Source: Heloderma charlesbogerti (taxonomy: Eukaryota > Chordata > Lepidosauria > Squamata > Helodermatidae). From it: a stretch of 64,000 bases of DNA. Where the stretch lies: assembly GCA_026122225.1 (NCBI GenBank), contig JANEZZ010000807.1:1116001-1180000 (forward strand). The letters run 5' to 3'. The position numbers and the translations under genes were made by a program. Of the stretch, positions 34 to 60,935 are shown piece by piece. The notes beneath the pieces were generated by a model that made no database searches, was not told the origin of the DNA, and worked only from the letters and a program-made list of their open reading frames with translations. Every line of letters starts with the position of its first letter. The stretch's first letter is position 1.

Positions 34-132
34 CATTAGCATGTTGCTGGTCTCCCGGGCGGCAGCATCGTTGTGGGCCTGGAACTGCAGTTTGTCCTGG
101 TACTGCTTGCAGTTCATGCCCTCGTGAATGGC
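34..132 (-). CDS. SHARPIN: SHARPIN coding exon 12 (end of IBR)
   Basis: Acceptor CCCACAG, then residues 591-623 ([15 protein letters not shown] and a helix). H593 and C598 complete the IBR zinc site. Donor GTGAGG at 33 shows that at least one more exon, expected to carry RING2, lies beyond the left edge. Confidence 0.85.
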
Positions 133-3100
133 CTGTGGGCAGGAAGAAGGGTTCAGACTCATTGGGCCCAGCAGAGGTTCCATCCTGCAAGGGGTGATTC
201 CTGGCCAGGCATTGCAGCCTGGCTCACCGGAGCCCCCCAAGGTTTCTGTGCATGCGGCAAGACCACCATGGCCGCCCAGGCCTGCTCTGCAGATGCACCA
301 GCTGGACGTGCCGCCGCCTCAAACTGGGGGGCGGGGGAGGGGCCTAGCTGTGAACGCCCGCCTTTGTGAAAAACAGCCTGTAAGCAGAAAACCACCCCAG
401 CCATAGTTTTCTTTCTCGCTGCCCTGCCATTTTTATTTGGGTGACGTTTTTTATTTGGGGAAGCACGGAAAGATGGCATCATGCCCTGCAGTCTGAGGCA
501 ATACCGTGCGCGCCATCCCCTCATGGTTCCGCAGGTGGAGATGCTGCAGCCCTTAGCTTGTGAGTTGCTCTGTTCCGTCTTCGCACGTTTGCTGCCTCCT
601 CTGCCTTCATGCCCCAAGAGTAGCCCCGTGGGCACTCCTTCGTCCCACAGCGTGCTGGGACTCAGAGCTTCAGTTGCACAGGCAGAATGTAAGAAAAACG
701 GAACGATTGCATTTTCCTAAGGAAGCCATTTCTGCCCTCCAGTCTTGCGCGAAGTGAAGCTAGAAAACAGGTGGGCAGGGGCTGCTGAAGTAGCTGAGGA
801 AGCAAAATGGGTGTCTATGGGTGGGCTAACTGGGCTTGGGGGGCAAGGCCCCTGCCCTCCTTCATGGCCCTCAGGCCTCTCTGCTGACCCATATGCCTGT
901 CTTGTCAGTCCCCCAACATCTTGTGAAATATTCCGATTTTTTTCCCCCGACGCCCTACTGGGCCTCAAGCCCATATAAGCCAGGGCACGCAGCACAGGAC
1001 GCTTTTCCCAGCATGCAACAGTGCTGCTGGAGCAAGGCAGGCTGGTGTAGTCCTGGCTCACCTTGCAGACAAGGCAGTTGAGAGCCCAGCAGATGGGGCA
1101 GCGGAACTCGTTGACGTCGTCCTCGTAGATGCACCAGCCGAGGCAGTCGGCCGTCTGGCAGTGGTAGCTGTTCTGGGCACGGCTCTCGGCCACCGCCAGC
1201 CGCCGCTCCAGGAAGCGCTCGTACTCGTCCCATGACACCAACTGCGGAGGCGGAGGAGGTGTCACAGAGACCCAAGGCGGAAGGGGGTCGGGGCCGGTGG
1301 GGCGCACCCTGTCTTCCCCGTCCAGTGAGGGGAAGTGAAAGGAGCCACAGGCCGCTGCCGCCTCAGCTTTCCCTGCTGCAGGAGGAGGAGTTCTGTGGAA
1401 GTTCTCTAGCGCTCTCGCGCTCTGCTCCACCAAGCAAAGCCGACCCGCGGCAAGGCCGCACTTCTCAGGCAGCTCTGGATGGAGACTGCCCGGTAACTGG
1501 CTGCCACTGGCAGGGCAGGACCCACATAGCCGCCCAGCCCGTCCTGCGGATCCTGAGGACAGGGCTGAGGCCATCCAGACTCACCGCCCGGATCTCCCTG
1601 TCCTGGAGGTGGCTGCTGCAGGCGTAGGAATCGTCTCGGAAGGGGCAGGCCACCTGGGGCTCTTCGCTGCAGCGGATCAGCTGGCGCAGGCAGTCCCTGG
1701 GGCGGGTGGGGAAGCATGTGGGTGAGACTGCTTGCAGTGCACTCCCCCTGCGGTGCAGCCCCCCGCCCCAAGGGCAGGAGAGCACCTCACCTGCAGAAGC
1801 TGTGCAGGCACTCCCGCAGCAACACTCCCTCGCCCGGCTCCACATCCAGGTAGCAGATGCGGCACTCCATCTCCTCCTGGTTGGGCACCAGAGCTTCTTC
1901 GTCCAGCTGGCACAGCTGCTGAAAGTTCTGCAGCCGGTTCTGCTCCTGTGCCTGCGTGGGACAGGGAAAAGCAGAGGTGTTCCCAGCACACAGCAAAGGA
2001 CGGTGCACCTCAGGGCCCTGGCCTGGGGGCCGGGGTATGGACTGCCCGGCTGCGGCAGGGGCACCCACAGACCTGCGGGATGGGGGTGGGGTGGCTTCTG
2101 CCTCCTCTCGGCCAAATTCCCCTTAACTCCACAAAAAGAGGCGGAAGCCTCTTGGCGGGAGAAGAGAACACTCTGAGGCGGGCAGCGCCCTCCAGCGAAG
2201 AACAAGAGACACCGACTGAAGACCTGGTCGCAGAAACCTAGCTAGCAGCACCAGCTCCTTTGCTGCAACAGGCCCCTTTGGCAAGAATACTGATCCAGCA
2301 CTTTGCGTTTCAGAGTGTGTTGCCTCCACTCCCTCAGCATCCTTGCAGCCCCGCACAAGGCGAAGCAGAAAAATAGTGACTTGCCCATTCTGGTCCTTGT
2401 TAAGCTTGTGGCACCTGCAACAGTGGCTGATAAGCCTCTCCCAGCTGCTCATTGAGATGTCCTCGTTTCTCATTCATTCATTCATTCATTCATTCATTCA
2501 TTCATTTCACTGCTATAGCGCCCAATAGCCGAAGCTCTCTGGGCGGTTCACAGAAATTAAAACCAAAAAGCACACAGTAAAACAATATAAGAGATTTAAA
2601 ATACAGATTTAAAACACCAAAGCTGAAAGTCTAGAAAGCTAAAATGCTAAAATGACTGGGAAAATAAAAAGGTCTTCACCTGACGCTGGAAGGAATACAA
2701 CATAGGTATCGGGCGAACGTCACTAGGGAGCTCATTCCACAGCCGGGATGCCATGGCAGAAAAGGCCCTCCTCCTAGTAGCCACCCGCCTCACTTCCTTT
2801 GGCAGGGGCACGTGGAGAAGGGCCACGGAGGATGATTTTAAGGACTGGGCAGGCGCATATGGGAGGAGGCGATCCCTCAGATAAGCTGGCCCCAAGCCAT
2901 TAAGGGCTTTGAATGTTAATACCAGCACTTTGAATCAGGCCCGGAAATAGACTGACAGCCAATGCAGCTGGAAAAGTACTGGTGTAATATGAGCTTGCTG
3001 GCCAGTCCCTGTTAACAATCTTGCTGCCCTATTTTGGACCAGCTGAAGTTTCCGGACCGTTTTCAAAGGCAGCCCCACGTATAACGCATTGCAGTAATCC

Positions 3101-6100
3101 AGACGAGAAGTTATCAGAGCATGGATAACTGTAGCTAGGCTATCTCTGTCTGGATAAGGGCATAGTTGGTATACCAGCCTAAGCTGATAAAAAGTGCTCC
3201 GTGCCACTGAGTTCACCTGTGCCTCAAGTCAGTTCTGGATCCAAGAGCACCCCCAAACTACGAACCTGATCCTTTAGGGGGAGTGCAACCCCCCCCAGAA
3301 CAGGTTGAACATCACCTAGCCGGGCAGACGAACCACCCACTAACTACCTCCGTCTTGTCTGGATTGAGTTTCAGTTTATTGGCCCTCATCCAGTCTATTA
3401 CCGTGCCCAGGCCCTGATTCAGAACAGCCACTGCCTCACCTGGTTTTGATAAGAAAGAGAGGTAGAGCTGGGTGTCATCCATGTATTGATGGCACCTCAG
3501 CCCACACCTCCGGATAACCTCCCCCAGCGGTTTCATGTAGATGTTAAACAGCATGGGGGATAAAACAGAGCCCTGTGGAACCCCATGGCACAATTGCCAT
3601 GGCACAGAGCAATAATCCCCCAGCACCACCTTCTGGAATCGGCCATCCAAGTAGGAGCGGAACCACTGCAGTGCAGTGCCTCCAACTCCCAACCCAGACA
3701 ACCTATCCAGAAGGATACCATGGTCGATGGTATCGAAAGCCGCTGAGAGGTCCAGAAGAATCAACAGGGTCGCACTCCCCCTGTCCCTCTCCCGGCAGAG
3801 GTCATCCCACAGGGCGACCAAGGCAGTTTCCATTCCAAAACCAGGCCTGAAGCCTGATTGAAATGGATCTAGACAATCCATTTCATTCAAGAGTGCCTGG
3901 AGTTGTCTTGCAACCACCTGCTCAAGCACCTTGCCCAAGAAGGGGGTGTTGGCCACCGGCCTATAATTGTTAACATCCTCTGGGTCCAGGTTAGGCTTTT
4001 TCAGGAGTAGTCTGATTACCGCCTCTTTTAAAGAGGCCGGCACCACTCCCTCTCTCAAGGAGGAATTTACAACCTCCTGGACCCAGCCGGACAACCCCTC
4101 CTTGTTTGATGTAATAAGCCATGAAGGGCAAGGGTCAAGCACACAAGTGGTCGACAGGACTTGGCCAAGCACTTTGTCCGCATCCTCAGGCTTCCATGGA
4201 AGCCACAGCTTGTCTCAAAATGCTGCTGCCCGCGTTTGGCTGGCGGGGGGGGTGGTGGCTTCCTTCCACTCAGTGCCCTGGCCACGTGAGAGCTAAGAGA
4301 CCCTACACCACCGCAGCATGTGTGAGTGAGCAAACAGTAAGAGTCCCAGGAGTGAACTGCAATTACTGCGTCCTTCCCATGCGAGACAAAGTCCCAGCTG
4401 CCTGGCTACCTCCATATTCCATAGCGTGCTGCAGCAGCAGATCTCACCATGGGGAAGCAACAGCTGAAGCTTGGGGGTAAAAATTACAATTCCACTTCTG
4501 GTCTTTAGAACACCAGCCTCACCGGCTCAATGTTTATTATGGAGTGGACTGCCTTCTCCTGCGTGAGCCTCCCCACCTGTTTCTTAGGAGCCTTCCTGCA
4601 CACACCTCCACTGAGGGAGACTGGCAGTACCCTGGGCAGGGTCTTTTTTGTGGTGGCCCCATTGCAGACAAACTCCATCCCACACTGGCCAAAACTGGCA
4701 TTAGATCCCTCAACTTTCTTACCAACTTATACTAAGTGGATACCAATTCAGTACTGAGAGCTGATCTCTATTATGATCATCACAGTTAAAATTTGTAATG
4801 CTAAATATTGGAGAATGCTCTCAGCACCTTCAGCACCATGGATATATAAAGTATAGAAACATACCACTGTGGCAAAATTGATAAATTATAGTAAGATAAA
4901 TAGTCAACAGTGATGCAATACATTTATTCAAATGTTGTCTTCCTTTAATATTGGTACAATGAACCTCATCTTCAGATGCAACACATACACATGACAATGT
5001 AAAAGTGAACCCATTTTGTGTATTTTGCAGGGCTCCTTTGAATTAAATCACAAGCATATGTATTTCTCTCTCAAGTATTAATAGGATGTATTATTAGTAT
5101 GCACATAATATTACGTTGAATGTTGGAGTCCGTCCCCGGAACACCCTTCCAGGGCTCAAGCTCTTGGTACCAGCTAAGAGCTTAGAAGGGCATTCCCTCC
5201 CAGCCAGCTTTGGGGGGAGGCCTGGGGCCTAGTGGTGGAGGCCCTGCTCTGGCTGCAGAAGTCCCCAGCACCTCCAGCTACAGATCCCTCTTGGCAGCCT
5301 TTGGGAGGGGCTGCCAGCCCATGTCAACGCAGAGCGAGGTGGACCCGCTCCCCAGGTTCATTAGGCGCATCTCTCGTTCAGTGGCAGAGCACCGGGCTTG
5401 CACGCAGACGGTCCCAGGCTCCATCTCCCACACCTCCGGGTATGGCCGGGACAGACTCTGAAAGCTGGATGTGTGCTGCAGGCCAGAGCAGGCTGAAGGT
5501 AGAGTGGGATCAGCTGGCGCATCCCTGGGCACGTTACAAGAGATGGGCAAGGCTGCCGGACTCTCCGTTGCATAAGAATAGCAACACAATGATGTTTCCC
5601 CAGCCAATATTCAGCTGCTGAATGAAGAACACTGGGGGTGACCAGGAGTGGAATTTGTGGGAAAGGGACTTGTGCGGTCAGTTCAGTGCTGGCAGTGGAA
5701 ATCAGTGTCTAGGCTCAGAATGTGCTCAAAGGCACCTGGTTCCTTAATGCTCCGTTTCTGCCTTTTGCACCTGACCCTGGCTGGTCCATCTCACCTGCAC
5801 TAGAAAGCTGAGGGCAGAGGAGGCTGAAGCCCCACCACTCCTGGCGTGGACAGTCATCAGCGCGACGGGCCAGCCGCCTGACTCCTCACAAGGCGCTTCC
5901 GACAGGGCAGCGCCTGCATTTCACTCTCGCTGCAGGCTTGCCATTTGCTCAGATGGGGTGATTTGTACATGTAGCTACCTACCCGGCTCTGTGGCTGTGA
6001 ACAGCCAGCATTCCTCTGAGAATGCCTGGCATGGGCAGGAAGAAAGCAGTTCCCAGCAGCTGCCCCAGATACATTGATGGCTGAGGCATCCCATGGGAAT

Positions 6101-7667
6101 GCCCTCCTGCCTACTCATCAACACGGGGCATTCTCCACAAGCCCTGCTGGGACAAGCAGGAGAGGGACCTGTGTTCCTGGGCAGCTCCTGCTCATTTCAC
6201 CAGAGCTTGCATCGGAGAACAGGCTGGTAGGTTGTGCTCAGATCTGTCTGTCTGCCACCTTTCGTGGTTCCCCAAACCTGCCTCCTTGCTCATCCTCACA
6301 AGAGGGCCTCTGAGAAGCAGTGCAAGCCCTTTCCAGTTGCCCTGGCGCCAGGCACAAGGCATCATGCGGCAGGCAGGGGGGTGACTGACATTTCGTTTCA
6401 GCCACTTCACTACTACTGACAGCTACTGTGGACTTCCGCCTGGCAGACCACCACTCCCTGCAGAACCAGGCCCCCAGGCACTGAACCAGCTGTTGCTGAC
6501 CACCTCCACCTGTCCCCTTCTCGGAAGGAGACATGCAAGCTGGCTGGCTGAGGGGGCTGCCGCCAGCGGGATGCCACTAAGGGGGCACGCCCCTTTGGGG
6601 AGTGACGAGGGCACCTCCCCCTTCTCGAGCAATGGTGTGTGGGGGAGATCCCAGGGGGAGAGTGTAGGATAGCTGGGGAGGCCGAGGTCCAGCCATCCTG
6701 TGGGTGAGAGCTGAGGGTGGGGGAATTGGCTAGGGTGAGAAGCCAGCCATAGCCCGGGTGACAGCCTCATGGGAGTGTAGAAATGTGGAGTGCTGGAGCG
6801 GGGAGGGGGAATAGGCCTCTTTTAATGGCCCGGTTTGTTTACCTGGCTGCACTGGCCTTTTGTTATTAGTTTCGTATCATTTTAGAGTTGTACATGTGCT
6901 CAGGTGAACCCCAGGGGAGGGAGGAGGAATGGGGTGCCCCTCTTGGAGTCATCTCGGGCAGAGGGAGGCATGGCGTTGGGCATGTCAGATAAGGGAAAGG
7001 CGGGACAGATATTTGAAATCTGTCCCATCTTTCAGTCCTTCCCCCATACTTCAAAATCTAGGTTGCCCTATCAGCCCTCCCTCTGATCTGTTGGTGCTGC
7101 TTTTGAATACAAGGCGAGTCCATAATAAAACAATTATGATCCATGAGTTGATTGTGGATGAAAGGGCTGACCTGGTGTGTATTACTGAGACCTGGGTGGG
7201 GTGGATCTGTCTCAGCTTTGTCCCCCTGGGTACTAACAGTCAGTGCAGCACTAAGCTAGACTGGAGGGTCGGGGGGAGGAGTTGCCATCATCCATAAGGA
7301 TTCTGTCTCCCTCACTAGGGAGCCCATCCATCCTAGCACCGGTTTTGAGGGCCTGTACCTTGTGTTAGGACAAAGAGAACAGGTATGCTGCTGGTGTACT
7401 GCCCACCCCGCTACCCAGCAGTCTCCCTACCTGCGCTGGCTGAGATGGTCTCAGAGATGGTGCTGGAAAACCCCAAAACTGTGGTTCTGGGGGACTTCAA
7501 CATCCATGCCAAGGCTATCCTGACAGGGCCCGCTTGGGACTTCATGGCAACCATGGGGCTCTCTCAGTACATCATTGGCCCAATAGATGTGGCAGGATGT
7601 ACCCTGGGCCTGAGTTCTGCTGTTGGGCAGATGAGGGATGATCTGGTTTTGATGAGGGATGATCTGG

Positions 7668-7707
<40 letters not shown>

Positions 7708-10700
7708 GGGGGGGGGTTCAACAACGCCGTTGTCATGGTCAGATCATTTCCTTGTGAAGTTTGGTTTGGCGGTAGCAGATCCTCCCTGAACGGGTGGGGG
7801 CCCAATTCAGATGGTCCGCCCCCAGAGACTTATGGAATCTGACGGGTTCCTGAATGCGCCGGGGGATTTTCTGGCTGATGATTCAGTTGAGGCATTGGTC
7901 TCACTATGGAATGGTGAGATGGGAAGGGCCACCAATACAGTTGCCCCCAAGCGCCCACTCCGGTGCTGTGGGGCCCATAATTCACCTTGGTTTACAGAAG
8001 ATCTATGGGCAATGAAACAGGCTGGGCAACTGCTAGAGTTCAGATGGCGCAGGTCTTGGAGCGAGTACAACCGACGATTAGCAAAGACTCTTCGTTGTGC
8101 CTATTATGTGGCAGTGAGGAGGGCAAAAAAAAGTCTTATTACACCTTTATTATCTCATCCTTGAAATGTTCCGAGTGGTGAAGACTGTTGGGATCTAGCT
8201 TGGGCTCAGAGAAATTGGGATTGGAACCCTCAGTCATTTGCTGTAATAAATTTGCTAGGCGCTTTGAGGAGAAAGCCAGTTGTATTCACTCAGAACTTGG
8301 CGCTAGTTATCGCAGAGTCTGGGGAGGTGTCCAGTGTTCCATCTGGCTATGTCTCCTGGGATCAGTTTCAGTTGCTGCAGCCTGATGTGGACAAGGCGCT
8401 TGAATCAGTCTGTCCCACCACACGCAAGATTGACCCTTGCCCGTCTTGGCTAATACAGTCTGGCGGGGTAGATTGGGTACGTCCAGGGGGTGGTCCCTGC
8501 TGCCTTGAAAGAGGCTGTAGTGCACCCCCTCCTGAAGAGGACCTCCCTGGACCCAGAAGCCTGCAAGAACAATTGCCCCATTGCTAATATCCCCTTTTGG
8601 GGCAAGGTGCTCGAGCACACGGTGATCGGGCAGCTTCAGACTTCGGAGGAAGCTGATTAGCAGGACTCATTTCAGTCTGGTTTTGGGCCAGGGTAGGGCA
8701 CCGAAACGGCCTTGGCTGCTCTCGACAACCTACTCTGGATGAAGGACTGCTGATCTTCCTGGATCTCTCGGCAGCTTTTGGCACCACTGTCTGACTGGCT
8801 CGGCTCTGCAGGACGGGGGTCGGGGGCATTGTGCTGCGGCGGCTCCGCTACCTACAGGGCCGATTCCAGAGCAGCATTGCGGGGGCCACAGGGCCCTATT
8901 CTACCCCCCATGCTGTTCAGCATCTATATGAAGCTGTTGGGTGAGGTCATTAGTTTTAGGCCGGGGTGTCACCAGCAAGCTGATGCTCCGCTCTGCTGCT
9001 CCTTGTCACTGGAGTTAGCTGGGGCAGTGAAGGTTCTGGACCTGTGCCTGGAGGCTGTAATGGGCTGCCTGAGGGCCAGTAAACTGAAGCTAAATCCTGA
9101 CAAGATGGAGCTCTGTGGACTGGTGGTTCCCGAGTTTGGGAATTGAGTAGGTGACCTATCCTGGATGGGGCCGCACTCCCCCTGAAAGAGCAAGTGCGTA
9201 GCTTGGCAGTACTCCTAGATCCATCCCTGTCGCTGGAGCCCCAGGTGGACTCCGTGGCCCGGAGTACTTGGGGCCAGCTTCGGCTGATCCACCAGCTATG
9301 ACCTTCCCTGGACAGGGACAGCCTCGCCACAGTAGCGCACGCGCTGGTAACTTCCCAATTAGACTGAATTGCACTTTACATGGGTCTGCCCTTGAAGATT
9401 CAGAAGTTGCAGCTAATGCAAAATGCAGCAGCTAGAATGCTGACTGGACTACCTCGTAAAGATCATACACCAGTTTTAAAGGAATCGCACTGGCGACCAA
9501 GATGCTTCCGGTCAGAATTCAAGGTCCTGGTGGTGACATTTAAAGCCCTAAGTGGCCTGGGACCTCAATATTTGAGGGAGCGCCTCTCCCTATATATGCC
9601 TGCCCAAGAACTGAGATCTGTTGGAGGGGCCCTCCTCTGTGTTCCACCAGCGCGAGACACACTAGGGTGAGATGTCGGAGAGGGCCTTCTCTGGTGTAGC
9701 ACCCCAGTTGTGAAATGCCCTCTGCTTCGAGGCCCAATTGGCACAGATGTTGGTTTCATTTCAGTGCCAAGTTAAAACATAGCTTTTCACCAAAGCCTTT
9801 GAGGGCTAAATGAGCTTCCTAAAGTTGCACACTGTTTTAACTGTCTCATTCCTTTAACTGGTATTAGCTTGTTTAATGGTTGAATATGCTGTATCTGTCT
9901 AAATTATTTGTTTTATATTGTTTAAACTGACTTTATTTGTACACTGCCCTGAGAATTTAATGATATAGGGCAGGATACAAATGTTTTAATAAGTAAAATA
10001 ATTGTTCACAGGATTGCACATGCACCATTACCCTCCCACTCTCAGATGCAGTGCACCCTAACGTAACTGGCCCATGGGGCAGGTGATGAAGACAGTATGG
10101 CCAGTGTTGGCTCAGCTGCTCCACCCCAGAAGCACCGCACTAGCACTCACCCCTTCAAAAAGTGTAATCAAGCTGGTCAGTCAAACAGACCCAACAACCC
10201 TGGCATGAGTGCGTGTGCACATGCATCAGAAATGGGAGGAGCCTTTCTTAACGGCCACTGGTTCAGACAGAGGGAGAGTACAGGCCATGGTTTAGGAAAA
10301 GCAACGTAATGCTTCTATAAGAGCTGTGGCCCCTCCCTGGGAGGAGGGTGGGATGCATTTCACCACACTTCTCTTGTCCGAGATGTTTGGTTTGCGCAGA
10401 GGTATGATCACCGACTCCTTGCACTGAGGCCGGATACTTCAGACCAGTGGTACCCATGCATCTGCCTGCCCACCAAGAAAGCTACCACTTGGGTAGTAGC
10501 TGCTGACAAGGCAGCCAGCTCCATAAGGCCGCTGCTGCCAATGGCCCTTTCTTGGGATGGCAGCACTGCAGTCTTTGCCGCTCCACGCAGCAGAACATTC
10601 ATAATTCTTCAGTCAAAATTTCAAGGGGCTACAAACTTCCTTTCAAACTCTGCTTACCCCAGATGTACCTGGCCCTGGCAAACAGCTGGGATACCCCCAT

Positions 10701-13700
10701 TCAGCTGCCAGGCAGTACAGGAAGTTAGGGCAGGAGTTATCCCATGAAGAAATGCAAAGCTGTTATTGTTACACCCCTGCAAGATGTCAGGCGAGACCAA
10801 GTAAGATGCCGCTAAGGCGCCTCTTCAAGCTAGGCCAGCAAATGGTTGGGGGTGGGGGGCGTGAGCACGGTCCGTGAGATTTCTCAAGATGATGTTGTTG
10901 TGCCAGCTGCGGCAGCTCCTCAGTAGGTAAAAGGGCCTTCTGTGGCACAGAAGGCCTCATCCAAGGTTTCTCGAGTGTGAATTTTACAACAGGCTTCCCC
11001 TCGCCACTTTCCAACATTTTCTAAGGGGAACTCACTTGTATCAGTATAATCACACCCACCCCTCCCAATCTGTCAAGGATGCTGAGAAGTAACACCAGAG
11101 CAGGCTGTCTGGCCCAAAGGAATCATTTAATAGAACAAGGGACTTGCCCTCCAGTTCACAGACCCATTATGAAGTAATTAACGTCACCTGAAACTTCCAT
11201 TGCAGAAAAAACACAGTGTTCAGTACAGGGAAAGGACATTTGTTCTCCAGCATGCATTGCTCCCTGGGGCAACCCATAGGGTGCCGGAGCGGGGCCAGCC
11301 GCGCTAGGGCGAAGGCACTGTCTGCTCCCAGATCCGCTGGCTGACTTTGGCAAATGGGAGACCAGCAGAGGCCAGGGCTGCCTCCATCACACGCAGCAGA
11401 CACAAGAACTCTCCTCCGCCCACAACACCCCCCGCTAACCGAGAAGCAATGGGGCGGGGGGGGGGGGGGAGCTGCAGGCAGCCCAAGCATTCTTCCTCAC
11501 AAAGTGCTATGAAGTCAGAGGGCCTCTCTTTCCAGCATGGCTTCAGCAGCAAGTTTCAAAGGCAGCGATGGGCTTCATGACAGACAAACTCCCTGGCTTT
11601 GGGGCGACTTCTGCCAACTGCCCCAGCACTGTGGCTGGCCTGGCAACGGCTTCCTTGCCTGTAACTCCAAAAGGCACACGCGGAGGGGGGCAAGCTAGCC
11701 TGCCAGCACCGACGCAAAGCCAGCAACTGTGGTGGCCCCCGGCAGGCAGGAGCCGCCTCAGACCCAGGAGAGGCAGGGCCACGAGCAGGTGGGGCCAAGA
11801 GCTGAGCGCCACTGAGGCCAGACGCGGCAGGCACCTCCGAGGGCTGGAGGGAAGGGGCGGCAGCAGGCCCCACCCACACATGCCAGCATGTGGGCCAACT
11901 GCCAGGAGGCAGAGCCAGAGGAAGCCACGGGGAGGGCCATGTGGTGGCAGCATCTGGGCAGCCAAAACCTTCATGGTGCGCGGCCACCTCAGCAACAGAT
12001 CGACCGCCTCCACTGGACAACCTGCAAAGCTGTTCTTCCCCTCTTCTTAGGGTCCAAACCACCCCGCCAAACGGTGCTGACACATATTTTCAGGGCAGGG
12101 AGCACAACTAAGGAAAGGTTCAGCTGACATGCCAGGCGGAGAAGGGGCCTCTAGGAGGGACTCAAAGCCAGGATCCACCCCAGGGCTGCCCTTTGTGCAA
12201 GACGATGACCCCAACTCCAGCCTTCATGGCTCACACCATTCGACGCCTCTGTGCATGAGAGGCAGACCCTTGAACAGGGAGGCTTGGTCTGCCCGGCTGG
12301 ACCAGCAGGTGGGCACCACACCACAGAGACTCCCAGGCCTAAGCTGGAGACAGGACAGAAAGGCGGAGGGATGGGGGATGGGGGAAAAGGAGGAGGGGTC
12401 AAGCAGGCCCTGCAGTGTCTCCCTGTGAGCACTGCTGCTGCCAGAGCACTGTTGCCACGCAAGCCGCACATGTCACACTTTGCTGCAATTATCGCAGTGG
12501 GTCCTCAAAGCCCTCTGTAGAGTACCCCACAATATTGCTTTCCCCCGCTTGCTCCAAGGCTGACTGATGCATGAAGCTCCCAAGACCCAGCGGGCAGCAG
12601 AAACCCTCAACTGCAAAATTCTCAGAAGTGACCTGAGGAACCAGAGCGTGCTGCAAGGCCCCCGCCCTGCCAGCAGCCGTGGTTCAGTCTCCGCCTGGCT
12701 CATCTCAACAGCCGCTGGCACGGCCCACTCCTCCCCAGAGGGTTCTGCTGCCTAGGTCAATGCAAGGCCCCACTGCAAAACAGGAGCGTGGGGCAGGCCT
12801 CTGAGAGACAGCTACGAGAACTCCGGGGAGAGGTGGATGAAGTCCTCCAGGGACCCAAGGCTGTGGGCACAGGGCACAGCTGAACCGTCTTCTCTCCTTC
12901 CCTTTTCCTGCCACAAGAGAAAAAAGAGAGAAGAGAAGAGAGTAATCAGGGCCCAGGGCTCGCCGGGAGCCTCCTCCACCCCCCAAGGCTGCTTCACCTT
13001 TAGCACCCCACCCCCACCAAGCCTCCACCAAGAGCTGAGCCAGCCCAGCCCAGCCTGCCAGCCTCCAGGCACACAGAAGTGGTTTTACTGGGCCCAAGGC
13101 GTTTGGAAGGGAAGTTCTTCTTCCAGGGTAGTATACATGCACAAAAACATGGTATGATGAAATAGAATTAAAACAAAGCTCAAAAATATAACTTGCATAA
13201 AGAGCAATTTTTAAAAAACCTATGGATAGGGATAAGTTATACTTAGCATTTTGATAAGTTAAAAAATAATTAAAGCATTACAATACAGGAAACGCTAAAA
13301 ATAACCTACTTCGTACATGTATTCCATTAACAGTAATGAAGATGATTTTGAGTTTTGCATAGTTCCACTGAAGGCGGTATTTGAAACGTGTTGGGCTCTA
13401 TAAACATACTTCTGTGTACCTGGAAGCTTCCTCCCTTCTTTTATTCATTATTCTATTTAAAATATTTCTAGACTGCTTTTAAAGGCAAAAGTCCTCCCAA
13501 GACAGCTCACACAATAAACTCCAATACAGCAAAACCCTGTAACAATGATAAAACAGCCATAATTAATAAAATCAACAAACACCAGCAATAAGACATTTAG
13601 TCCAGACAGTACTAAAATCTAAAACACAATTGCAACTAAAAATCCAGAACAGTCCACTGAGACATACTCAACAGAAAGCCACAGAAAACAAGTATGTCTT

Positions 13701-16700
13701 CAGGGCCTTCCTGAAAGCTTGCAGTGGTGGGAACTGACAGAGGCCCGTCCTCTCCAGATATGGCCGCAGCTAAGCCTAAGCGGGTAAAATGCACTCCTGG
13801 ACATGGCAGCCACCTGGGCTTCCCCAGTTAGCACAGGGACTCCCAGACTGCACACTGGGTCTTTCAAGGGGAAGGCAGCCCCACCTAAGACCAGTTGTAA
13901 CCCTTGCCTTCCCGTTTTCCATTTCCTATACCACAGCCACACTGCATGCTGCCATTTGTAAAAGCTGGAAGGTTCCTTTGCTTATGCCAGTTAAAAGGAG
14001 GACATTTCTGAGGGAAGAGAGATTAATTCTCCAAAGTGTGTTGAGCTGTGAACGATAATAAAGAGAATCGTTTTACCAGCACCTGAGATACGCACCCCCC
14101 TCTTTTTCCTTCGGCTATCAGGTGCCGCTTCCATTTCTATCCTGCTTCCCAGCCAATATTGGCCCCTGAGGCAAGTTACAAACATACCAGAAAAGACTCA
14201 GTAAAAGACAGAACCTAAAAATGCCACAATTAAAAGTACCAGCAAGAGGACTAAGGCTCAAAAAGCAAGTGTCGGCTAAGGAACAAACAACTTCCCAAGG
14301 GGGAAGAGCTTTGGCAGCCCCCTTCCCGCAGACCAGGAGCAGGCTCACCAGGCGCCCCCAGGGTGGGAGCTACACAAGGAGAGGCCCCTCGCCAAAGGCT
14401 GCCAGCACAAGCAGCCATGCCAGGTGCTTTCAACAGTGAGGGCCCTCTCAGAGGGCTTCTCCAGCTGATTGCAAGGTGGGGAAGGGGACCGCCAGCTTAC
14501 CTTCTGGTACTGCAAGATCCCCTCCTTCTCCTGCTGCATCCGCCATAGCTCCATCTCATCGGGCTTGTAGCTCCCAGGAACCACATAGTTGGCAGGCCGG
14601 TCTGTGCTGCACATCTCACAGCCGGGCCGGGTAGGCTTGTTGATGAACGTGCAGGTAGGACACGACCAGCCCGCCTGCGGAGGGAGAGGAGAACACCCAG
14701 TCTCAGCGCCAGCAGGGCCAGTGAGGGGCCAAAGGGCTGCTGCCCTGCAGCCCAGAGCCATCCCTCCCCTCCCACCCACTCATTGCCAGCAGGGGAGGGG
14801 GCCCAATGGAGGAGGCACTCTGACCCCCCCTTCTATAAATATGGGTTTGTGCAGACAGCCGTGTGACACGAGGCAGTGCCACAGGGAGCCCTGATGGGAG
14901 GGAAAGCTCAGGGCAGTTTTGTTGGGACTGGAAGAAGTGCATGTGTGGAGGGGAGGGGGCGATGCCACTTGCACTGTGGCACTGAGCAGTGGGAGCCCCA
15001 CCTGCCCAGAAGTGGGGGCTGCTGTGGGGGCTGGAGGGGTTCGGCCAGGACTGGGAAGCTGCGGAGTGCCCAGGAAGTGGCTGATCTCCCCGATATCCAT
15101 CCTCCTGCTGGCGTCTTTCGCACCTGCGGGCAAAAGAGAGACTGGAGAGAAGTGCTGCCGACCTCCTTCCACGGCGGAGGCTGACGGTGATGGCATGAAC
15201 CTTCCTTCCCCCTAGCTGCAGCGGCCTATGCATGTTCTGCCTACTCTCTCTCGCTCACCTTTCTTCGGCAGAGGGCTGGGCAAGGTGCTGCACTTGTGCT
15301 TGGTGTCGGAGCCATCAGTGAGTGGCGAGGGAGCTGGCTGCAGCACCCCCCAATCTTTGTCCTCCTTGTAGCGCTGCTCTGAGAGGTTGGCGCCCTTTGC
15401 CGAGAGGAGGTAGAGAAAGGCCGTGTCTCCATCGTTCCGGATCCCATAAGAGCCAACAGTTCGGTCGTCCACACAGAGGCACCGGCCAATGATCCAGCGC
15501 TGGACCCCGGGGTGGAACCCATAATCCTGAAAGACCTGGGTGGGCGGGGAGAGGTGCAGAAAGTGGAGAGCAGGTCACCCTGGGTGAGGCCCCAACCTGG
15601 CACCTGCCCCCATGCCTTTTACAGTGCTCAGAAGCCCTGCCTGGCCCTCCCCACCAGGCCAACAGCCACGCAACTGCCACGCAGGTCATCCTTCCTAGAG
15701 GCTGATCTGGGTGGGAGACCAGTAGCCTGCACCCCCATCCAACAGTAGTGGTCGAGGTACCTTCTGCCTGAGCGCTGCAATGGTGGTGTGCGTGTGGACC
15801 CGGGTGGTGATGCTGGCTGAGCACATGGCGTCTTCCACTTGCACTTTCATGCTACAAGGAAGGACAGAGACCCATGAGACAGCCACATCACAGCCAACTT
15901 TGTGCGCGCGGAAAGAGGACCAGAGCCCCACCCGCAACACCGGCTGCCCTGCCCAGCAGCCTCCAGAGGCTCCACCCACTCCCCTCCGCCCTCGCCTGAT
16001 CTCGCTCCTGGGGTAGCAGGACTCCTTCAGCAGGATGCGCAGAGTGGCATGCTGATGAGCAAGCACAGTGGCGCATCGCATGGCCTCCTCCTCGTCCCCA
16101 AGTTCGATAGCCACAGACAGATGGTTCGCCAGGTCTTCTGGGGGAGAATTTTAAGTAGCTGTTATTCATATGCACACCACCTTTCTCCTCTCTTGACACT
16201 GCAGTCATCTCTGACTGCAGTACAACTCTAGTTCATCCTTCTGTCTATTTGTGTTGACTGATGTGAGTGATTTTCTATATTTTAATTGTTGTGGCTCAGT
16301 TTAAGAATCTTGCACTAAAAAGCAAGTTATAAATTCTCTAAAAATAAATAAGCACCCCACTTCCCAATTTGAGGGCAGTTGGAGGGATTTGTAATATCCA
16401 CAGCAAATCCTCCGTCCCCACCCAACCCTGATTAATTGCCCTTTGGGGACCTTTACCTTGCAGTAGTTGAGTTCTATAGGGCAATTGAGACAGGATGTGT
16501 AAACATAACTCACTTCTTTAGTAATTTAGGGAGATTTATGGCAATTGTTGCAACTAGGATTTCTCCAAATTCCCCTCACCAACAATACTTCACAATACCC
16601 AGTTCACCAATCACCATTTTATGAACAGAAGCAGCTGCTTGACTGGGTGCAGGTGGAAGAGCATTTAAAATGTGCAGATGCCATATTTCCTGACAGCTAA

Positions 16701-17544
16701 GTAAAATTTGTCTAATTGATTGACTTGCTAACTCAAATGATCAGGCAAGCAATGGGATTGGCACTATCTTTCCTGTACTTGCAAAATATCATTTTCCAGG
16801 TAGCAAAAGCTGAAAGTGCAACATCTTTTCTAGAAACATTTACTCTTTATTATCCCAAACTGTCTGCCAGCTTTCAATAGGAATGTAGATTCCTTTGGTC
16901 ACCACACCACTAGCTGGGAAGTGCCCCATGCCAGTCTGCCACCAACCTTTCCTTGCAAGCTCCAAGGGCAGAGGGGCCTCAACTTCTGACACAGGCAGAG
17001 AGTTCACAGCCACCAAAGGATGAGGAGGAGGCCGTCCTGCAAGCACACTGGTGCCCTCAGCAGCTGGGGAGAGAGAAGAGTTTAAGGGAGGAGCACTCTG
17101 TCTCCTGGGCCAATTAGGAGGCAGACACTGCCAGCTCAGAGCCCCATTCTATTGGCAGAGGAAGGTTAGGCCTCAAATTCTATACAGGAGGAAAAGCTAG
17201 AGTACAGACAAAGAGTACAGTGCATGCACACTGTCTATGGACTGCTACATCCAATGAAGAGTGATCCTGGATGCTTGGAAACGCCCACACCTAACTGCCC
17301 ATCAAGGCAAACACATCTGGCAGAGTCTACCAGCAGTCTACCCTGAAGAAACCTCACAGGAGCCAGGAACATTGATGCTTGATCTTTAAAGACAGACATG
17401 CCCAAGGAGGAGAAGGAGGAGCAGCAGGCTATAAAAGGTTGCTTAATCTGGAAGCAGCTATCCATTGTGAACACAGGTGAGCTTCATTGATGGTGGAAAG
17501 GGCCTACGCACACACATGCACACAGGTGTGCACGCATGCGCCCA

Positions 17545-17588
<44 letters not shown>

Positions 17589-19587
17589 AGAGGCCCTGGC
17601 AGAATTGGACGCTGCTTGCTCTCACCCCAAGTCTCTGCACTGGCAAATACTCCCATCTTGCAGTGCCAGGAAGCAGGCTGCTCCAACCCAATCTATAGCT
17701 GCCTGCCTGAACCATCTATGAGCTCAACAGTGGAAACAGGCCTGCGGATGAAGGGGCTTATGTGACTGCCCAGGTATGCAGCCTGAACCACCCCCGCCTT
17801 CAGGATGCTACAGCCTAGGAAGGGGGGAGGGGTCGCATTGCAAAGCCTCTCATTCTACGGCCCACAATACACAATTTCAGCAAAGGCAGCCCATTTTCTC
17901 AATATAATGCTTATGGACTCTTGTTGGTTTGGCCCACAAACTCATGCCAACTCCCCCACAGATCAAGCCAACATGGGTAGGCACCTCGTTGCATAAAGGG
18001 TGCAAATGTCTCCCCTCCTGACCATGCCTGCAAAAGTTAACAAAACGTGGCTTGTCTGAGCAGCCAGCCCCCTCTGGGTACCACAGACAGCAGACTGGCC
18101 TGTGTAAAGGCTTCCTTGGGTAGCAGCTGACCTCTGTGCACCTCCCGAAGGGAGCTGCTGATGACCATCCACCACTTCTGCGCCTCATGCTCATCCTCAA
18201 AGTGAAACACAAGGGGGTCGTCTGGGCGGGCCAAGACCTTCAGCTCGTGGCACGTGGCAGTCTTCACCTCGTAGGAGATCTCTTTGAGGCTATACTCAAC
18301 AAAGCTCTGGGGGCAGAAGAGGGTCACTGGACCAGTGCAAAGTCAAACAGCCCAGTCCATTCCACTCGAGGCCTCCACAGTCAAGCTGCGGTCCCCACCC
18401 CCCAGCCAGCAAAGTGGGTAAAATTGTATTTCCCAGGAGAGCCTTCTGAGCCTCCCTTGTCAGTGCTACGATAGTGAAAGCCCCCTGCCCCGGGTAGCTT
18501 AAGAGATCAGATCTCCAATAAAATGTGATGCCCGAGTGGGCTCTCTGTAGGGAAGAAACTTTCCACTACTCCTGAGGAGGAAAGGCAGCCCCTCCCTCCC
18601 TGGAATTCCACACACGGCAGCCAGTAGAACCCATGTGCCCTTTTCCCACCCCCCTCTCTCAGTTCTATCTGCCAAGAGCATCTCACAGTAACAAAGTTGA
18701 GCATCAGGCTGCTTACTGGAAAAAGGAAATGAAAGCCGGGGGGGGGGGATAAGAGGCACCGCTGGCATTCTACCTTCCCCAACCACTGCAAGCCCCCCCC
18801 CCCCCGCCACACAGAACTCAGCATCTAGTCCCCTGGTCTGGGACAGCTCAGGGCACTGGGGCTTGGGGCTAGCTGCTCTCTTCAGCCACAGACGCCATTG
18901 GAATGACGGCAATTTGACAACGGGGGGAAAATGGTTTTGTTTCAGCAGCCTGTGGGCTTGGCTTACGATCTGATCGAGGGCTAGCTGAAAAATCAGGGCC
19001 TACAGAAGGGGGAATCGGGACGGGCCTCGTCGACCTGTGGACGAGGGGGAACCGACGCCGTTCGGAGGGGGTTGGGCACGTCTCTCAACCACGGACCGGT
19101 ACCCGCCTGGCTCGCGGCGCTGCCTGGCGAAAGCAGAGCCTGCAGTCCCCCCTCCAGACCAGCCGGGAGGGAGCGGCCTCCCGGGGCCAAGGAGCCACCT
19201 GCAAGCCCCGCAGCGCCGCTCCACGGACTCGCCCTCCGTGGGCCTCCCCCGCCCGACCCGCGAAGCCGAGCTGGGAGGGCAAAGGGGGGCTCCCGCAAGA
19301 GGCCCACCGAGTCCCCCCTTTCATTGGAGCCGCAGGCCAGCAGCCTGGAGCCGCCCGGCCGCTCTCACCGGCTCGGGCCCCGAGTCCGGCCCGCCCCTCA
19401 GACCGAGACGGAAGCGCTCGGGGCCGGGGGCCGCGCTAAGCTGGAGCCGGAGCAGGCGCTGCGCTTCCCGGCCCGACGAAGACGGCAGAGGCGGCGCCGG
19501 CGGACGCGGCACCCAGGCCCGCGCCGAGGCCAGCACCGCCAGGCCGGGCGGAGCCGGCGCGGAGCTCAAGCCCGGCGCCGCCGCCAT
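34..19587 (-). CDS. SHARPIN: SHARPIN-like gene encoding PH-UBL-NZF plus RBR (RING1-IBR), 3' end outside the window
   Basis: Twelve coding exons join in frame without a stop: 19587-19369, 18306-18132, 17063-16947, 16137-15996, 15851-15761, 15535-15259, 15123-15002, 14674-14501, 1951-1791, 1696-1585, 1241-1062 and 132-34 (1869 nt, 623 codons). The N-terminal half has the SHARPIN order: PH-like fold (about residues 40-131), UBL (about 215-300, with GRCLCV and FLYLLSA) and NZF (C386, C389, C400, C403). The C-terminal half has RING1 (C469 to about C519) and IBR (C558 to C598) of HOIL-1 type. Family knowledge: SHARPIN and HOIL-1 are accessory subunits of the LUBAC linear-ubiquitin ligase in the cytosol; mammalian SHARPIN stops just after the NZF. 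Divergent MAF1 and downstream WDR97 support the SHARPIN locus. RBCK1 itself is a poorer fit, because it lacks the PH-like region. RING2 and the stop lie to the left of position 34. Confidence 0.88.
133..1061 (-). other. SHARPIN intron 11
   Basis: Intron between the two IBR exons. I see no repeat family, conserved exon or RNA gene in it; open frames here have no family resemblance. Confidence 0.6.
1062..1241 (-). CDS. SHARPIN: SHARPIN coding exon 11 (IBR domain)
   Basis: Residues 531-590. [16 protein letters not shown] forms the helix leading into IBR; C558, C563, C578, C581, C586 and C589 follow IBR spacing (C-x4-C-x14-C-x2-C-x4-C-x2-C). The segment [17 protein letters not shown] is very close to HOIL-1. 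Confidence 0.88.
1585..1696 (-). CDS. SHARPIN: SHARPIN coding exon 10 (RING1, second part)
   Basis: Completes Arg493 and gives residues 494-530, with C495, C510 and probably C519 as remaining RING1 ligands ([12 protein letters not shown]). Same layout as HOIL-1, where the segment is ACPF-like and followed by a REI helix. Donor GTGAGT, phase 0. Confidence 0.85.
1791..1951 (-). CDS. SHARPIN: SHARPIN coding exon 9 (RING1, first part)
   Basis: Residues 440-492 plus two bases. After a helical stretch come C469-x2-C472, C487, H489 and C492, the first zinc ligands of the RING1 of an RBR ligase. It is separated from the NZF exon by 12.5 kb, but the phases agree (0 to 0). Confidence 0.85.
2466..4200 (-). 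mobile_element. L2-clade LINE, 5'-truncated, with RT domain
   Basis: Antisense L2-type LINE in the large SHARPIN intron. It ends at a (GAAT)n tail (plus-strand ATTC repeat at 2471-2505). A reverse transcriptase reading frame at 4172-3312 has [40 protein letters not shown] and a YMDD box in place of the usual YADD. Downstream parts read [18 protein letters not shown] and [14 protein letters not shown], typical of the L2 C-terminus. The frame breaks around 2930 and 3220-3310, so it is a dead copy. Confidence 0.8.
2471..2505. repeat. (ATTC)n tandem repeat, tail of the L2 element
   Basis: About eight ATTC units. Position next to the L2 3' end shows it is the element's own simple-repeat tail. Confidence 0.8.
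4210..5360. other. Intron sequence with no recognised feature
   Basis: Part of SHARPIN intron 8. AT-rich between 4740 and 5110. No gene or repeat family that I can name. Confidence 0.4.
5368..5570 (+). repeat. tRNA-derived SINE copy
   Basis: Starts with a Pol III A-box-like GTGGCAGAGCACCGGG and a B-box-like GGTCCCAGGCTCCATC about 30 bases on, with a tRNA-unrelated body after it. The same family recurs at about 20145. It resembles abundant squamate tRNA-derived SINEs; the copy is old. Confidence 0.5.
6830..9990 (+). mobile_element. L2-clade LINE, near full length, degraded
   Basis: Sense-strand L2-like element. Endonuclease pieces are visible at about 7130-7200 ([10 protein letters not shown]) and 7380-7610 ([18 protein letters not shown]). 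RT pieces lie at 8760-9140 ([25 protein letters not shown]) and the C-terminus at 9380-9670 ([33 protein letters not shown]). Many stops and shifts; the YADD box is lost. It ends in an AT-rich 3' tail. Both L2 copies in this intron help explain its 12.5-kb length. Confidence 0.75.
7669..7706. repeat. (TG)n microsatellite within the L2 copy
   Basis: Roughly 17 TG units followed by a G run, interrupting the endonuclease region. Likely length-variable. Confidence 0.9.
9991..13430. other. SHARPIN intron 8, GC-rich unique sequence
   Basis: Long minus-strand frames between 11.3 and 12.1 kb and at 12.7-13.1 kb come from high GC and have no recognisable domain. A G run sits at 11456-11470. I see no exon. 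Confidence 0.4.
13430..13800 (-). repeat. Probable antisense LINE 3' end fragment
   Basis: AT-rich stretch with many AATAA/AAAC runs passing into a part where the complement reads like a LINE C-terminus (CAGGGCCTTCCTGAAAGC region near 13700). Family not certain; L2-like by appearance. Confidence 0.35.
14501..14674 (-). CDS. SHARPIN: SHARPIN coding exon 8 (NZF zinc finger and HOIL-type linker)
   Basis: Residues 382-439. The RanBP2/NZF finger has C386-x2-C389-x10-C400-x2-C403 and the Thr-Phe pair (390-391) that contacts ubiquitin in this family. In mammals SHARPIN ends soon after this finger. Here the exon runs on with [20 protein letters not shown], a linker of the kind that joins NZF to RING1 in HOIL-1. 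Donor GTAAGC, phase 0. Confidence 0.9.
15002..15123 (-). CDS. SHARPIN: SHARPIN coding exon 7 (Pro-rich linker to NZF)
   Basis: Codons 341-381, Pro/Ala/Thr-rich. The acceptor CCCGCAG and entry phase are clear. Three phase-0 donors are possible within 30 bases; GTGGGG at 15001 is the most donor-like, so the right-hand border may shift by up to eight codons. Confidence 0.6.
15259..15535 (-). CDS. SHARPIN: SHARPIN coding exon 6 (UBL, second part, and linker)
   Basis: Residues 249-340. [18 protein letters not shown] and [17 protein letters not shown] form the second half of the UBL; GRCLCV is closer to SHARPIN than to HOIL-1 as I remember them. A charged and then Pro/Ser-rich linker follows. Donor GTGAGC at 15258, phase 1. 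Confidence 0.88.
15761..15851 (-). CDS. SHARPIN: SHARPIN coding exon 5 (UBL, first part)
   Basis: Begins after acceptor TTGTAG and gives residues 218-248, including [19 protein letters not shown] and AALRQK, the opening strands and helix of the ubiquitin-like domain. Donor GTACCT in phase 0. Confidence 0.83.
15996..16137 (-). CDS. SHARPIN: SHARPIN coding exon 4 (LUBAC-tethering helix region)
   Basis: Encodes [18 protein letters not shown] and the following helix, which resembles the conserved helical segment before the UBL shared by SHARPIN and HOIL-1 (known in that family to tether the subunits). The exon ends in phase 2 at ATCAG followed by GCGAGG, a non-canonical GC donor. Confidence 0.82.
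16138..16946 (-). other. SHARPIN intron 3
   Basis: Mostly AT-rich sequence. No repeat family or exon recognised. Confidence 0.4.
16947..17063 (-). CDS. SHARPIN: SHARPIN coding exon 3 (linker)
   Basis: Low-complexity Pro/Leu-rich linker (codons 132-170) between the PH-like domain and the LUBAC-tethering/UBL part. Acceptor CCCCAG precedes it. Donor GTTGGT (16946) is not a strong site, but its phase joins exactly with exon 4 to give ELARKEDLANHL. Confidence 0.7.
17064..18131 (-). other. SHARPIN intron 2 with microsatellite
   Basis: Holds the (CA)n tract; nothing else recognised. Confidence 0.4.
17545..17586. repeat. (CA)n microsatellite
   Basis: Interrupted once near its start (ACACCACAC) and then about 18 CA units. 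Lies in SHARPIN intron 2. Confidence 0.9.
18132..18306 (-). CDS. SHARPIN: SHARPIN coding exon 2 (PH-like domain core)
   Basis: Acceptor CCCCCAG precedes [14 protein letters not shown]; the exon encodes residues 74-131 plus one base. The tryptophan-containing helix near its end ([14 protein letters not shown]) is the usual C-terminal helix of a PH fold and matches the SHARPIN layout. Donor GTCAGC begins at 18131. Confidence 0.85.
18307..19368 (-). other. SHARPIN intron 1
   Basis: Contains G and C runs (18737-18746, 18787-18804) and, from 19.0 kb, the beginning of the CpG-rich promoter block. Confidence 0.4.
19369..19587 (-). CDS. SHARPIN: SHARPIN coding exon 1 (start codon, first PH-like strands)
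   Basis: ATG at 19587-19585 opens 73 codons in a CpG-rich block. Residues 42-61 ([20 protein letters not shown]) resemble the first strands of the SHARPIN PH-like domain. The exon ends in phase 0 at a GTGAGA donor (19368). An Ala/Pro-rich lead precedes the domain. Confidence 0.8.
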
Positions 19588-25915: not shown

Positions 25916-26056
25916 GAAGTTCAACATTATAGCTGTAGCACTGAGAACTGTTCTGGTGCCAGGAAGCACAACAATGAAGCTGTTGGAAAACTCCAGTTTT
26001 GAAGCCATAAACTCCCAGCTGACGGTGGAGACGGGAGACGCCCACATCATTGGCAG
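25916..26056 (+). CDS. MAF1: MAF1 exon with start codon
   Basis: Acceptor CCTCCAG at 25915; 58 untranslated bases, then ATG at 25974. Codes for residues 1-27 plus two bases; donor GTGAGG. Confidence 0.93.
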
Positions 26057-32000: not shown

Positions 32001-32338
32001 CAGTGGCTCCACGTACCCTCATCCCGAGGCCGGGAATGAGCTGAACATGGACCTGAGCGAGGACGATGCGGAGGAGGCGGCCGGCCCCTGTGACAAGGAC
32101 GGGGCCAGCGTGGAGGAGGACAGGTGGCCGCGTGTGTGTGTGAATGTGTGGAAGTGACTCTGGGCCCTGCTCTGGGGCACTGGGGCCCTTGCTGCCACTG
32201 GGCAGCTGAGGGAGGGGCTCCCTCGAGGCGGGGCGGGGCAGGCGAGTGACTCAGTGGGCGGGGCGGCCTCCTCTGGCTGCACTTGAGGGCCTCCTCCTTG
32301 CCTCTTCTGTCTGCAGGAGACAAGTGATCTGCATGTGA
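25974..32338 (+). CDS. MAF1: MAF1, repressor of RNA polymerase III
   Basis: Seven coding exons: 25974-26056, 29742-29870, 30420-30585, 31539-31660, 31784-31903, 32004-32123 and 32317-32338, giving 253 residues plus stop (human MAF1 is 256). All junctions are GT-AG and in phase. The product starts [16 protein letters not shown], carries the Ser/Pro-rich mobile loop that mTORC1 phosphorylates in this family (around residues 60-80), and the conserved core with [15 protein letters not shown] and [14 protein letters not shown]. It ends in an acidic tail and the motif VICM. Known role: binds Pol III and blocks BRF1-dependent initiation in the nucleus under stress or starvation. Transcribed away from SHARPIN from a CpG promoter. 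Identification is firm. Confidence 0.97.
27712..27885 (+). repeat. Unnamed interspersed repeat, copy 1 of 3
   Basis: Shares CTTCCAGACAAGGCTTTTAC-like start, CATCGCCCTGCC, TCCTGTGTTTTCCCACC and a CTTACCAGAGAAAA segment with copies at 54325 (plus) and 50047 (minus). Confidence 0.5.
29110..29345 (+). mobile_element. L2 LINE fragment (RT region)
   Basis: Reads [20 protein letters not shown] and GIFLDRL, a decayed form of the L2 RT segment seen antisense at about 3740. It is followed by GTCTTGTGGCATCCTACAAG and CATAAGCTTTCATGGACTA (to about 29445), part of another old interspersed repeat. Confidence 0.6.
29742..29870 (+). CDS. MAF1: MAF1 exon, residues 28-70
   Basis: Reads [19 protein letters not shown] and [15 protein letters not shown], the conserved A-box end and start of the regulatory loop. 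Acceptor CCTGCAG, donor GTACGG. Confidence 0.95.
30420..30585 (+). CDS. MAF1: MAF1 exon, residues 71-126
   Basis: Reads [20 protein letters not shown] and then [18 protein letters not shown]. Acceptor TGCTAG, donor GTAAGT in phase 0. Confidence 0.95.
31539..31660 (+). CDS. MAF1: MAF1 exon, residues 127-166
   Basis: Reads [20 protein letters not shown] and [10 protein letters not shown]. Acceptor TTTTCAG, donor GTGGGC. Confidence 0.95.
31784..31903 (+). CDS. MAF1: MAF1 exon, residues 167-206
   Basis: Reads [19 protein letters not shown] and [19 protein letters not shown], the B and C boxes of MAF1. Donor GTCAGG. Confidence 0.95.
32004..32123 (+). CDS. MAF1: MAF1 exon, acidic tail
   Basis: Reads [20 protein letters not shown] and a run of Glu/Asp residues. 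Donor GTGGCC at 32124. Confidence 0.92.
32317..32338 (+). CDS. MAF1: MAF1 last coding exon with stop
   Basis: After acceptor TCTGCAG only seven codons remain, ending VICM and TGA at 32336-32338. The short terminal motif matches the family end (VICI in human). Confidence 0.9.
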
Positions 32339-60767: not shown

Positions 60768-60779
60768 CATGATGCTAGA
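60768..60779 (+). repeat. Target-site duplication, right copy
   Basis: CATGATGCTAGA, a perfect match to 57614-57625. Confidence 0.85.
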
Positions 60780-60935
60780 ACCCAACGGGGTCATCCTATG
60801 AAGCTGAGTGGTGGAAGATTCAGGGCAAATAAAAGGAAGGACTTCATGCAGCGTATAATTCACTTCCACACAATGTAGTCACGGCTACCAATTTGGACGG
60901 CTTTAAAAGGGGGTTAGACAGATTCAAGGTAACTG
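60780..60935 (+). mobile_element. CR1/L3-like LINE, right part
   Basis: Continues the 57045 element: VVTATNLDGFKRGLDRFK, the C-terminal motif also seen near 22900. Confidence 0.65.

Follow-up and report, generated by a model that had tools for sequence, protein, structure and literature searches.

Two predicted ends, one of them with a HOIL-1-type RBR, in the SHARPIN gene of the lizard Heloderma charlesbogerti

The window analyzed here is a stretch of 64,000 nucleotides from Heloderma charlesbogerti (contig JANEZZ010000807.1, positions 1,116,001 to 1,180,000; G000:C699:1116001-1180000 in our coordinates), and the 20 kb to its left were also read. It contains the gene for SHARPIN, an immune-signalling protein and a subunit of the linear ubiquitin chain assembly complex (LUBAC). 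Based on tblastn with human proteins as probes, CYC1 lies approximately 6 to 9 kb left of base 1 of the window and MAF1 lies at 25974-32142, with SHARPIN between them. The human order, CYC1-SHARPIN-MAF1, is the same. The exons allow two predicted products: a long form that continues into a HOIL-1-type RING-between-RING (RBR) region, and a short form that ends in a tail encoded inside an intron.

Joining 12 exons, from window position 19587 to 34 on the minus strand (Table 1), gives 623 codons without a stop. The domain order is PH, LTM, UBL, NZF, RING1 and IBR. The preliminary description of this DNA had placed eight SHARPIN-type exons and four RING1 and IBR exons in one frame, which agrees with this result; the "twelve junctions" it counted are 11 internal junctions. 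Exons 2 to 12 all have AG acceptors, and 11 of the 12 exons have GT donors. For exon 4, the frame is held only with an end at 15996, where the donor is GC (ATCAG/GCGAGG). The exon 4 intron (window 16137-15851) is thus of the GC-AG type. Pfam matches on the window protein are Sharpin_PH (PF16764; 9.9e-30, residues 17-132), LTM (PF25393; 2e-18), the RanBP zinc finger (4.8e-7) and RING. Sequence matches in PDB are 7yui_B (NZF-RING1-IBR of human HOIL-1; 5.5e-88), 5y3t_C (LTM-UBL of SHARPIN; 4.9e-37) and, for the PH, SHARPIN 4emo_A (3.2e-9). The LTM and UBL are conserved in sequence and are predicted to bind HOIP. The NZF and RING1 exons are separated by a 12.5-kb intron, whose length is partly explained by a reverse-transcriptase reading frame inside it (RVT_1 2e-33; window 3315-4214, minus strand). 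Left of the window, where the preliminary description expected RING2 and its catalytic Cys, exons 13 and 14 encode an intact HOIL-1-type RING2 and a stop codon. The long protein is 697 residues in length.

In HOIL-1, according to PMC9834252, the active-site residue is Cys460; Glu471, a His at the C-terminus (His510) and a binuclear zinc cluster with the spacing C-x19-C-x-C-x6-C-x3-C-x2-C complete the signature. Equivalents of C460, E471 and H510 and the Zn2Cys6 cluster are all found in the lizard RING2, with the HOIL-1 spacing kept. These matches bear out the earlier proposal of a fused HOIL-1-type RBR. In alignments, the zinc ligands of RING1, IBR and RING2 are present in the long form. One RING1 ligand had been uncertain and is now resolved; the lizard stretch aligns with CPFIDNTYSC of HOIL-1. 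The AlphaFold model of the long protein of Elgaria has a mean predicted local distance difference test score (pLDDT) of 64; PH, NZF and RING1 are fair to good, and UBL, IBR and RING2 are poor.

Relatives were taken as the best 120 of 385 database clusters found, from sharks to birds. The entire HOIL-1 RING2 pattern is seen in 106 of them. Five more have the Cys/Glu core with a different C-terminus, and nine, among them the short forms P0065 and P0080, have neither. The Pfam PH mark is seen in 113 of the 120. The fusion of SHARPIN with an RBR is no peculiarity of this animal. A chance or assembly artefact was considered and rejected, since so many relatives have the complete pattern. Across 63 aligned full-length vertebrate proteins, hand-picked from the same 120, none of the checked ligand and active-site columns varies, apart from one IBR His that is nearly invariant.

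The long form might be a pseudoligase, in which the RBR folds without catalysis and serves only as a scaffold. This would fit the lack of an RBR in the mammalian entries and in one group of teleost copies (see below), and the activity of the long form is a prediction from its sequence. The equivalents of C460, E471 and H510 and the cysteines of the binuclear cluster are, however, invariant in the 63 proteins, which would hardly be expected without catalysis, and a pseudoligase is unlikely.

In the window gene, as in all nine non-mammals compared, the motif Y-x-P-D-x-x-E-x-x-R comes after the NZF. HOIL-1L has an NZF tail of this kind, which is anchored to the core by the YXP motif and Glu234 and contacts the proximal ubiquitin through Arg237; according to PMC10511788, HOIL-1L is so far the only protein for which such a tail is known. 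The predicted structure of rattlesnake SHARPIN has a helix at 411-435, over the NZF tail. None of the four mammalian SHARPINs compared has a HOIL-1-type NZF tail.

The short proteins of a gecko (P0065) and a rattlesnake (P0080) share a C-terminal tail that is not seen in long forms. The tail matches a site inside the 12.5-kb intron (Table 1), which was overlooked in the preliminary description. Exon 8 joined to this tail exon gives a predicted RBR-less SHARPIN of 470 residues. Searches of the intron with five tails, those from gecko, rattlesnake, chicken, the caecilian-like entry P0190 and echidna, all lead to this one place (48.5, 48.9, 38.5, 41.2 and 26.2 bits, respectively). The best scores for the same tails in 300 introns shuffled in two-base blocks are 26.6, 22.3, 21.9, 20.8 and 21.6 bits. 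Over its 31 residues, the lizard tail is 74% identical to that of the gecko and 74% to that of the rattlesnake. The best match of a tail model (model 1, below) among 126 long-form entries has an E of 2.3. A database search with the tail finds three clusters, all squamate (5 candidates). Two proteins from the search for human-SHARPIN-like entries, chicken isoform X2 (P0187) and the caecilian-like P0190, also carry the tail. P0190 is 76% identical to two caecilians, its nearest matches. It lies on a contig of 2213 bases, and P0109, a long fish entry, lies on one of 2990 bases. Both look like spliced transcripts, because these contigs are too small for the many introns of the gene.

In the rattlesnake short-form model, PH, LTM, most of UBL and NZF are good, and residues 443-447 and 449-460 in the tail have pLDDT below 50. 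Most of the tail is predicted to be disordered, as is often the case for short motifs. A fold search with this model finds LUBAC core and SHARPIN PH structures, and no match for the tail. Outside placentals, the tail motif is [DE]-x-F-[IL]-H, followed by a C-terminal E-[FY]-[CS]. The final residue is Cys in chicken, the caecilian-like entry, monotremes and many placentals, and Ser in squamates and marsupials. It is preceded by Glu or Asp and a bulky residue, which resembles a C-terminal binding motif. The tail may also resemble an LC3-type or PDZ-type ligand.

Mammalian SHARPINs were sampled from human-SHARPIN-like entries of approximately 398 residues or more. Among the best 120 of 263 listed, 66 are mammalian, eight of which are unnamed and assigned by similarity; the length filter excludes entries of human length, and the share of mammals with a tail is not readable from this sample. 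A long mammalian form should rank high, because the search favored such lengths. Neither the RING2 core nor the RING1 motif tested is found in any of the 66 entries. The two monotreme entries end in GSLDDFIHLSSEFC. Three of the five marsupials end in SLD-x-FLH-[LM]-SSEFS, one end being diverged and another truncated. Many placental entries end in REDGPSLPGPRSLDPLLNLSGDLC or similar sequences. With a tail model built without mammals (model 1), the monotremes score 3e-9 and 1e-8, three of the five marsupials 2e-6 to 9e-6, and three placentals 0.003 to 0.009, while the best of 330 shuffled sequences reaches 0.024. With monotreme and marsupial tails added (model 2), 16 of 59 placental entries reach 0.01, versus 1 of 590 shuffles. 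Several primate- and rodent-like entries stop ahead of the conserved tail (AAAST or similar). P0122, identical to human SHARPIN, is one of them. Tail decay seems to have occurred in some placental lineages. The C-terminal frames of the pangolin and macaque entries among P0122-P0188 look shifted relative to the placental tail.

Mammalian SHARPIN (PDB 4emo, 5y3t and 5x0w) shares with the lizard protein the order PH, LTM, UBL and NZF, and presumably the locus between CYC1 and MAF1. It differs in the lack of the RBR and of the HOIL-1-type NZF tail. In a tree of the PH-to-NZF part, mammalian SHARPIN is nested within tetrapod proteins (Shimodaira-Hasegawa-like approximate likelihood ratio test, SH-aLRT, 88). 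Ending after the NZF is not seen in the lizard long form; the short form, which also ends soon past the NZF, would show it. By comparison of these sequences, ending there is a mammalian feature and not a feature of the vertebrate family. Mammalian SHARPIN looks like the ancient short product. Its RBR exons would have disappeared before monotremes and therians diverged, a date that rests on two annotated monotreme models. The preliminary description proposed that mammals lost the RBR. The absence of the RBR from the mammalian entries agrees with it, but the statement is incomplete: "mammals kept only the short product" is the better wording, because the gene also has a last exon that would yield a protein without the RBR.

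A similar separation is suggested in teleosts. A tree of ray-finned fishes was made of 64 entries (59 from teleosts) from listings of best matches. Here, 15 teleost entries form two groups (SH-aLRT 87 and 89), and all 15 are RBR-less among the matches listed. The remaining 44 comprise 36 long, six short and two partial entries. This tree keeps the two short-only groups apart; in a smaller tree, 13 short-only teleost entries form one clade (87). A second teleost copy of SHARPIN thus looks RBR-less, as far as the matches listed go. In two pairs, P0214/P0225 and P0191/P0207 (the latter from one genus), short and long proteins are nearly identical in the shared part, as expected for two products of one gene. 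The fish tails start with EKGRRE and have other endings (SLLYNLDQDY and alike).

From this distribution, the tail exon is no younger than the tetrapod ancestor and probably goes back to the ancestor of bony vertebrates. Several observations weigh against the two-ended reading and this history. Only 1 of 12 fish tails reaches 0.01, and the case for their homology with those of tetrapods is built mainly on EKGRRE and the position. The squamate tail is known from just the three clusters mentioned above. Two of the five marsupial entries fail 0.01 with model 1; 43 of the 59 placental entries stay short of this mark with model 2 and are singly weak matches. The platypus SHARPIN model is without the Pfam NZF and may be incomplete. 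Neither AATAAA nor ATTAAA is found within 1.6 kb past the tail stop, the first ATTAAA being at 11131. The last of these points would suit a poison exon, whose inclusion leads to decay of the transcript and not to a short protein. The tail is, however, conserved as protein between Heloderma, gecko and rattlesnake, and in diverged form it is the C-terminus of monotreme, most marsupial and many placental SHARPINs listed; we regard a poison exon as quite improbable.

The in-frame last exon inside the 12.5-kb intron could also mean that the SHARPIN transcript stops at the NZF or the tail exon, and that the RBR exons belong to a separate downstream gene or an RBCK1-like duplicate. This is very unlikely. 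The end of exon 8 and the start of exon 9 are both in phase 0, and RBCK1 of the same animal is interrupted by an intron at the matching point behind its NZF exon. In databases, proteins from sharks to birds run through the join without a break, with the RING2 and PH counts given above, and P0109 is a long form on a contig of transcript size.

RBCK1, which encodes HOIL-1, has its own locus in this genome (contig C1879), with LTM, UBL, NZF and RBR pieces. HOIL-1 (PDB 8eaz, 7yui and 8bvl) resembles the window protein in the series LTM-UBL-NZF-RBR, the catalytic residues, the zinc cluster, the YXP motif in the NZF tail and the co-located intron. It differs in locus and in the PH. In a whole-genome search for Sharpin_PH, the window locus is the only match listed (5 candidates scored); none was found in the animal's own RBCK1, where local matches are weak. 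Over 315 residues from NZF to RBR, the own RBCK1 shares 73% identity with human RBCK1, whereas the window gene shares 62% with the own RBCK1 and 61% with the human one. A tree of 33 RBR sequences, with no root inferred, splits human and own RBCK1 from 31 SHARPIN-type proteins with 100/99 support. The 31 are from cartilaginous and ray-finned fishes, coelacanth, amphibians, turtles, birds and squamates. Support for a single clade of cartilaginous fishes plus RBCK1 is too low to be informative (66/78). The first tree left out five cartilaginous fishes, one turtle and one frog through an NZF motif filter, and later trees include them. In agreement with the preliminary description, the PH and LTM domains, the place between CYC1 and MAF1 and this phylogeny identify the window gene as SHARPIN. 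Many of its relatives are named RanBP-type and C3HC4-type zinc finger-containing protein 1, a kind of name that had been guessed before, but synteny, the separate RBCK1 locus with its higher identity to human RBCK1, the Sharpin_PH match, the 100/99 split and the nested position of mammalian SHARPIN leave almost no probability for an RBCK1 that gained a PH domain, and RBCK1 identity was rejected.

Since PH and RBR are found together from cartilaginous fishes to birds, the architecture dates at least to the jawed-vertebrate ancestor; an ancestor with both parts had already been supposed. Many long entries are already named "sharpin" in databases. Those of approximately 700 residues (Elgaria, Anolis, Strix and others) represent the same long protein, as annotations; that of Elgaria is 88% identical over 623 residues. 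Among the titles and abstract openings listed from the literature, none describes an RBR in SHARPIN, or such an alternative exon. The long form is thus already in databases, and the novelty may lie in the gene having two ends and in how the mammalian protein is interpreted.

Taken together, it is very probable that squamate SHARPIN can be read out in two ways, as a 697-residue form with the RBR and a 470-residue form with the tail, both old, and that mammals kept the short one. Splicing of exon 8 to exon 9 would give PH-LTM-UBL-NZF-RING1-IBR-RING2 with all checked catalytic residues of HOIL-1. This form would join LUBAC via UBL and LTM, like mammalian SHARPIN, and act as a HOIL-1-like ligase, with ester-linked or mono-ubiquitin as the expected product. 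Splicing of exon 8 to the tail exon would give the RBR-less protein, a putative non-catalytic LUBAC subunit like mammalian SHARPIN, whose conserved tail may bind some partner. In mammals, the RBR exons would have been lost and this product kept. We infer from the sequence that Heloderma charlesbogerti uses both ends. A LUBAC with three RBR subunits, as the preliminary description suggested, would take HOIP, RBCK1 and long SHARPIN in one genome, and the genes for the latter two are found here. Regulation by splice variants may have a precedent in the paralogue RBCK1, because RBCK2 and HOIL-N are published as its splice variants. They are likewise alternative products of a HOIL-1-type gene, RBCK2 presumably without the RBR. 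The own RBCK1 locus differs in that no SHARPIN-like tail exon was found there.

Table 1. Exons assigned to SHARPIN in the window and to its left
Feature	Position	Strand	Basis
Exon 1, start codon and PH part	19369..19587	-	Pfam Sharpin_PH
Exon 2, PH part	18132..18306	-	Pfam
Exon 3, linker	16947..17063	-	Exon joining
Exon 4, LTM, GC donor	15996..16137	-	Pfam
Exon 5, UBL first part	15761..15851	-	PDB sequence match
Exon 6, UBL second part	15259..15535	-	PDB sequence match
Exon 7, linker	15002..15123	-	Exon joining
Exon 8, NZF and HOIL-1-type NZF tail, common to long and short forms	14501..14674	-	Pfam, tail motif in relatives
Alternative last exon, 31 residues and stop, acceptor ttctcttgtggcag, phase 0 after exon 8	12812..12907	-	
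Exon 9, long form, RING1 first part	1791..1951	-	PDB sequence match
Exon 10, RING1 second part	1585..1696	-	PDB sequence match
Exon 11, IBR	1062..1241	-	PDB sequence match
Exon 12, IBR end and linker	34..132	-	Exon joining
Exon 13, RING2 part	G000:C699:1115609-1115466, left of window	-	
Exon 14, RING2 end and stop	G000:C699:1110962-1110882, left of window	-	

Elsewhere in the window, retroelement-like reading frames are seen at 57988-62573 on the plus strand. One of them matches RVT_1 (3e-35), and another matches a GDSL-like lipase domain (4e-9), perhaps as ORF1 (open reading frame 1) of a CR1-like element. At 51458-52468, also on the plus strand, there is a WD-repeat-like reading frame with weak Pfam matches below the cut-off. 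It is perhaps the neighbor gene WDR97.

We lean slightly towards a more general view, in which the choice of the last exon gives a catalytic or a non-catalytic LUBAC subunit in most vertebrates, and the two products have parted at least twice, in mammals and in a teleost copy. The view of SHARPIN as a non-catalytic adaptor comes from work on the human and mouse proteins. Should both forms be made in most other vertebrates, mammalian SHARPIN would be a derived remnant. Human SHARPIN would be without the RBR, the NZF tail for linear ubiquitin or the tail motif, and mouse SHARPIN presumably likewise. Cells could tune the ester- and mono-ubiquitin activity of LUBAC through the choice of the last exon, and the composition of LUBAC in fish, chicken and lizard would not be transferable from mammals. 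Two questions would become testable: whether two subunits of LUBAC once shared the HOIL-1 activity, and what binds the conserved tail that is missing from human SHARPIN.

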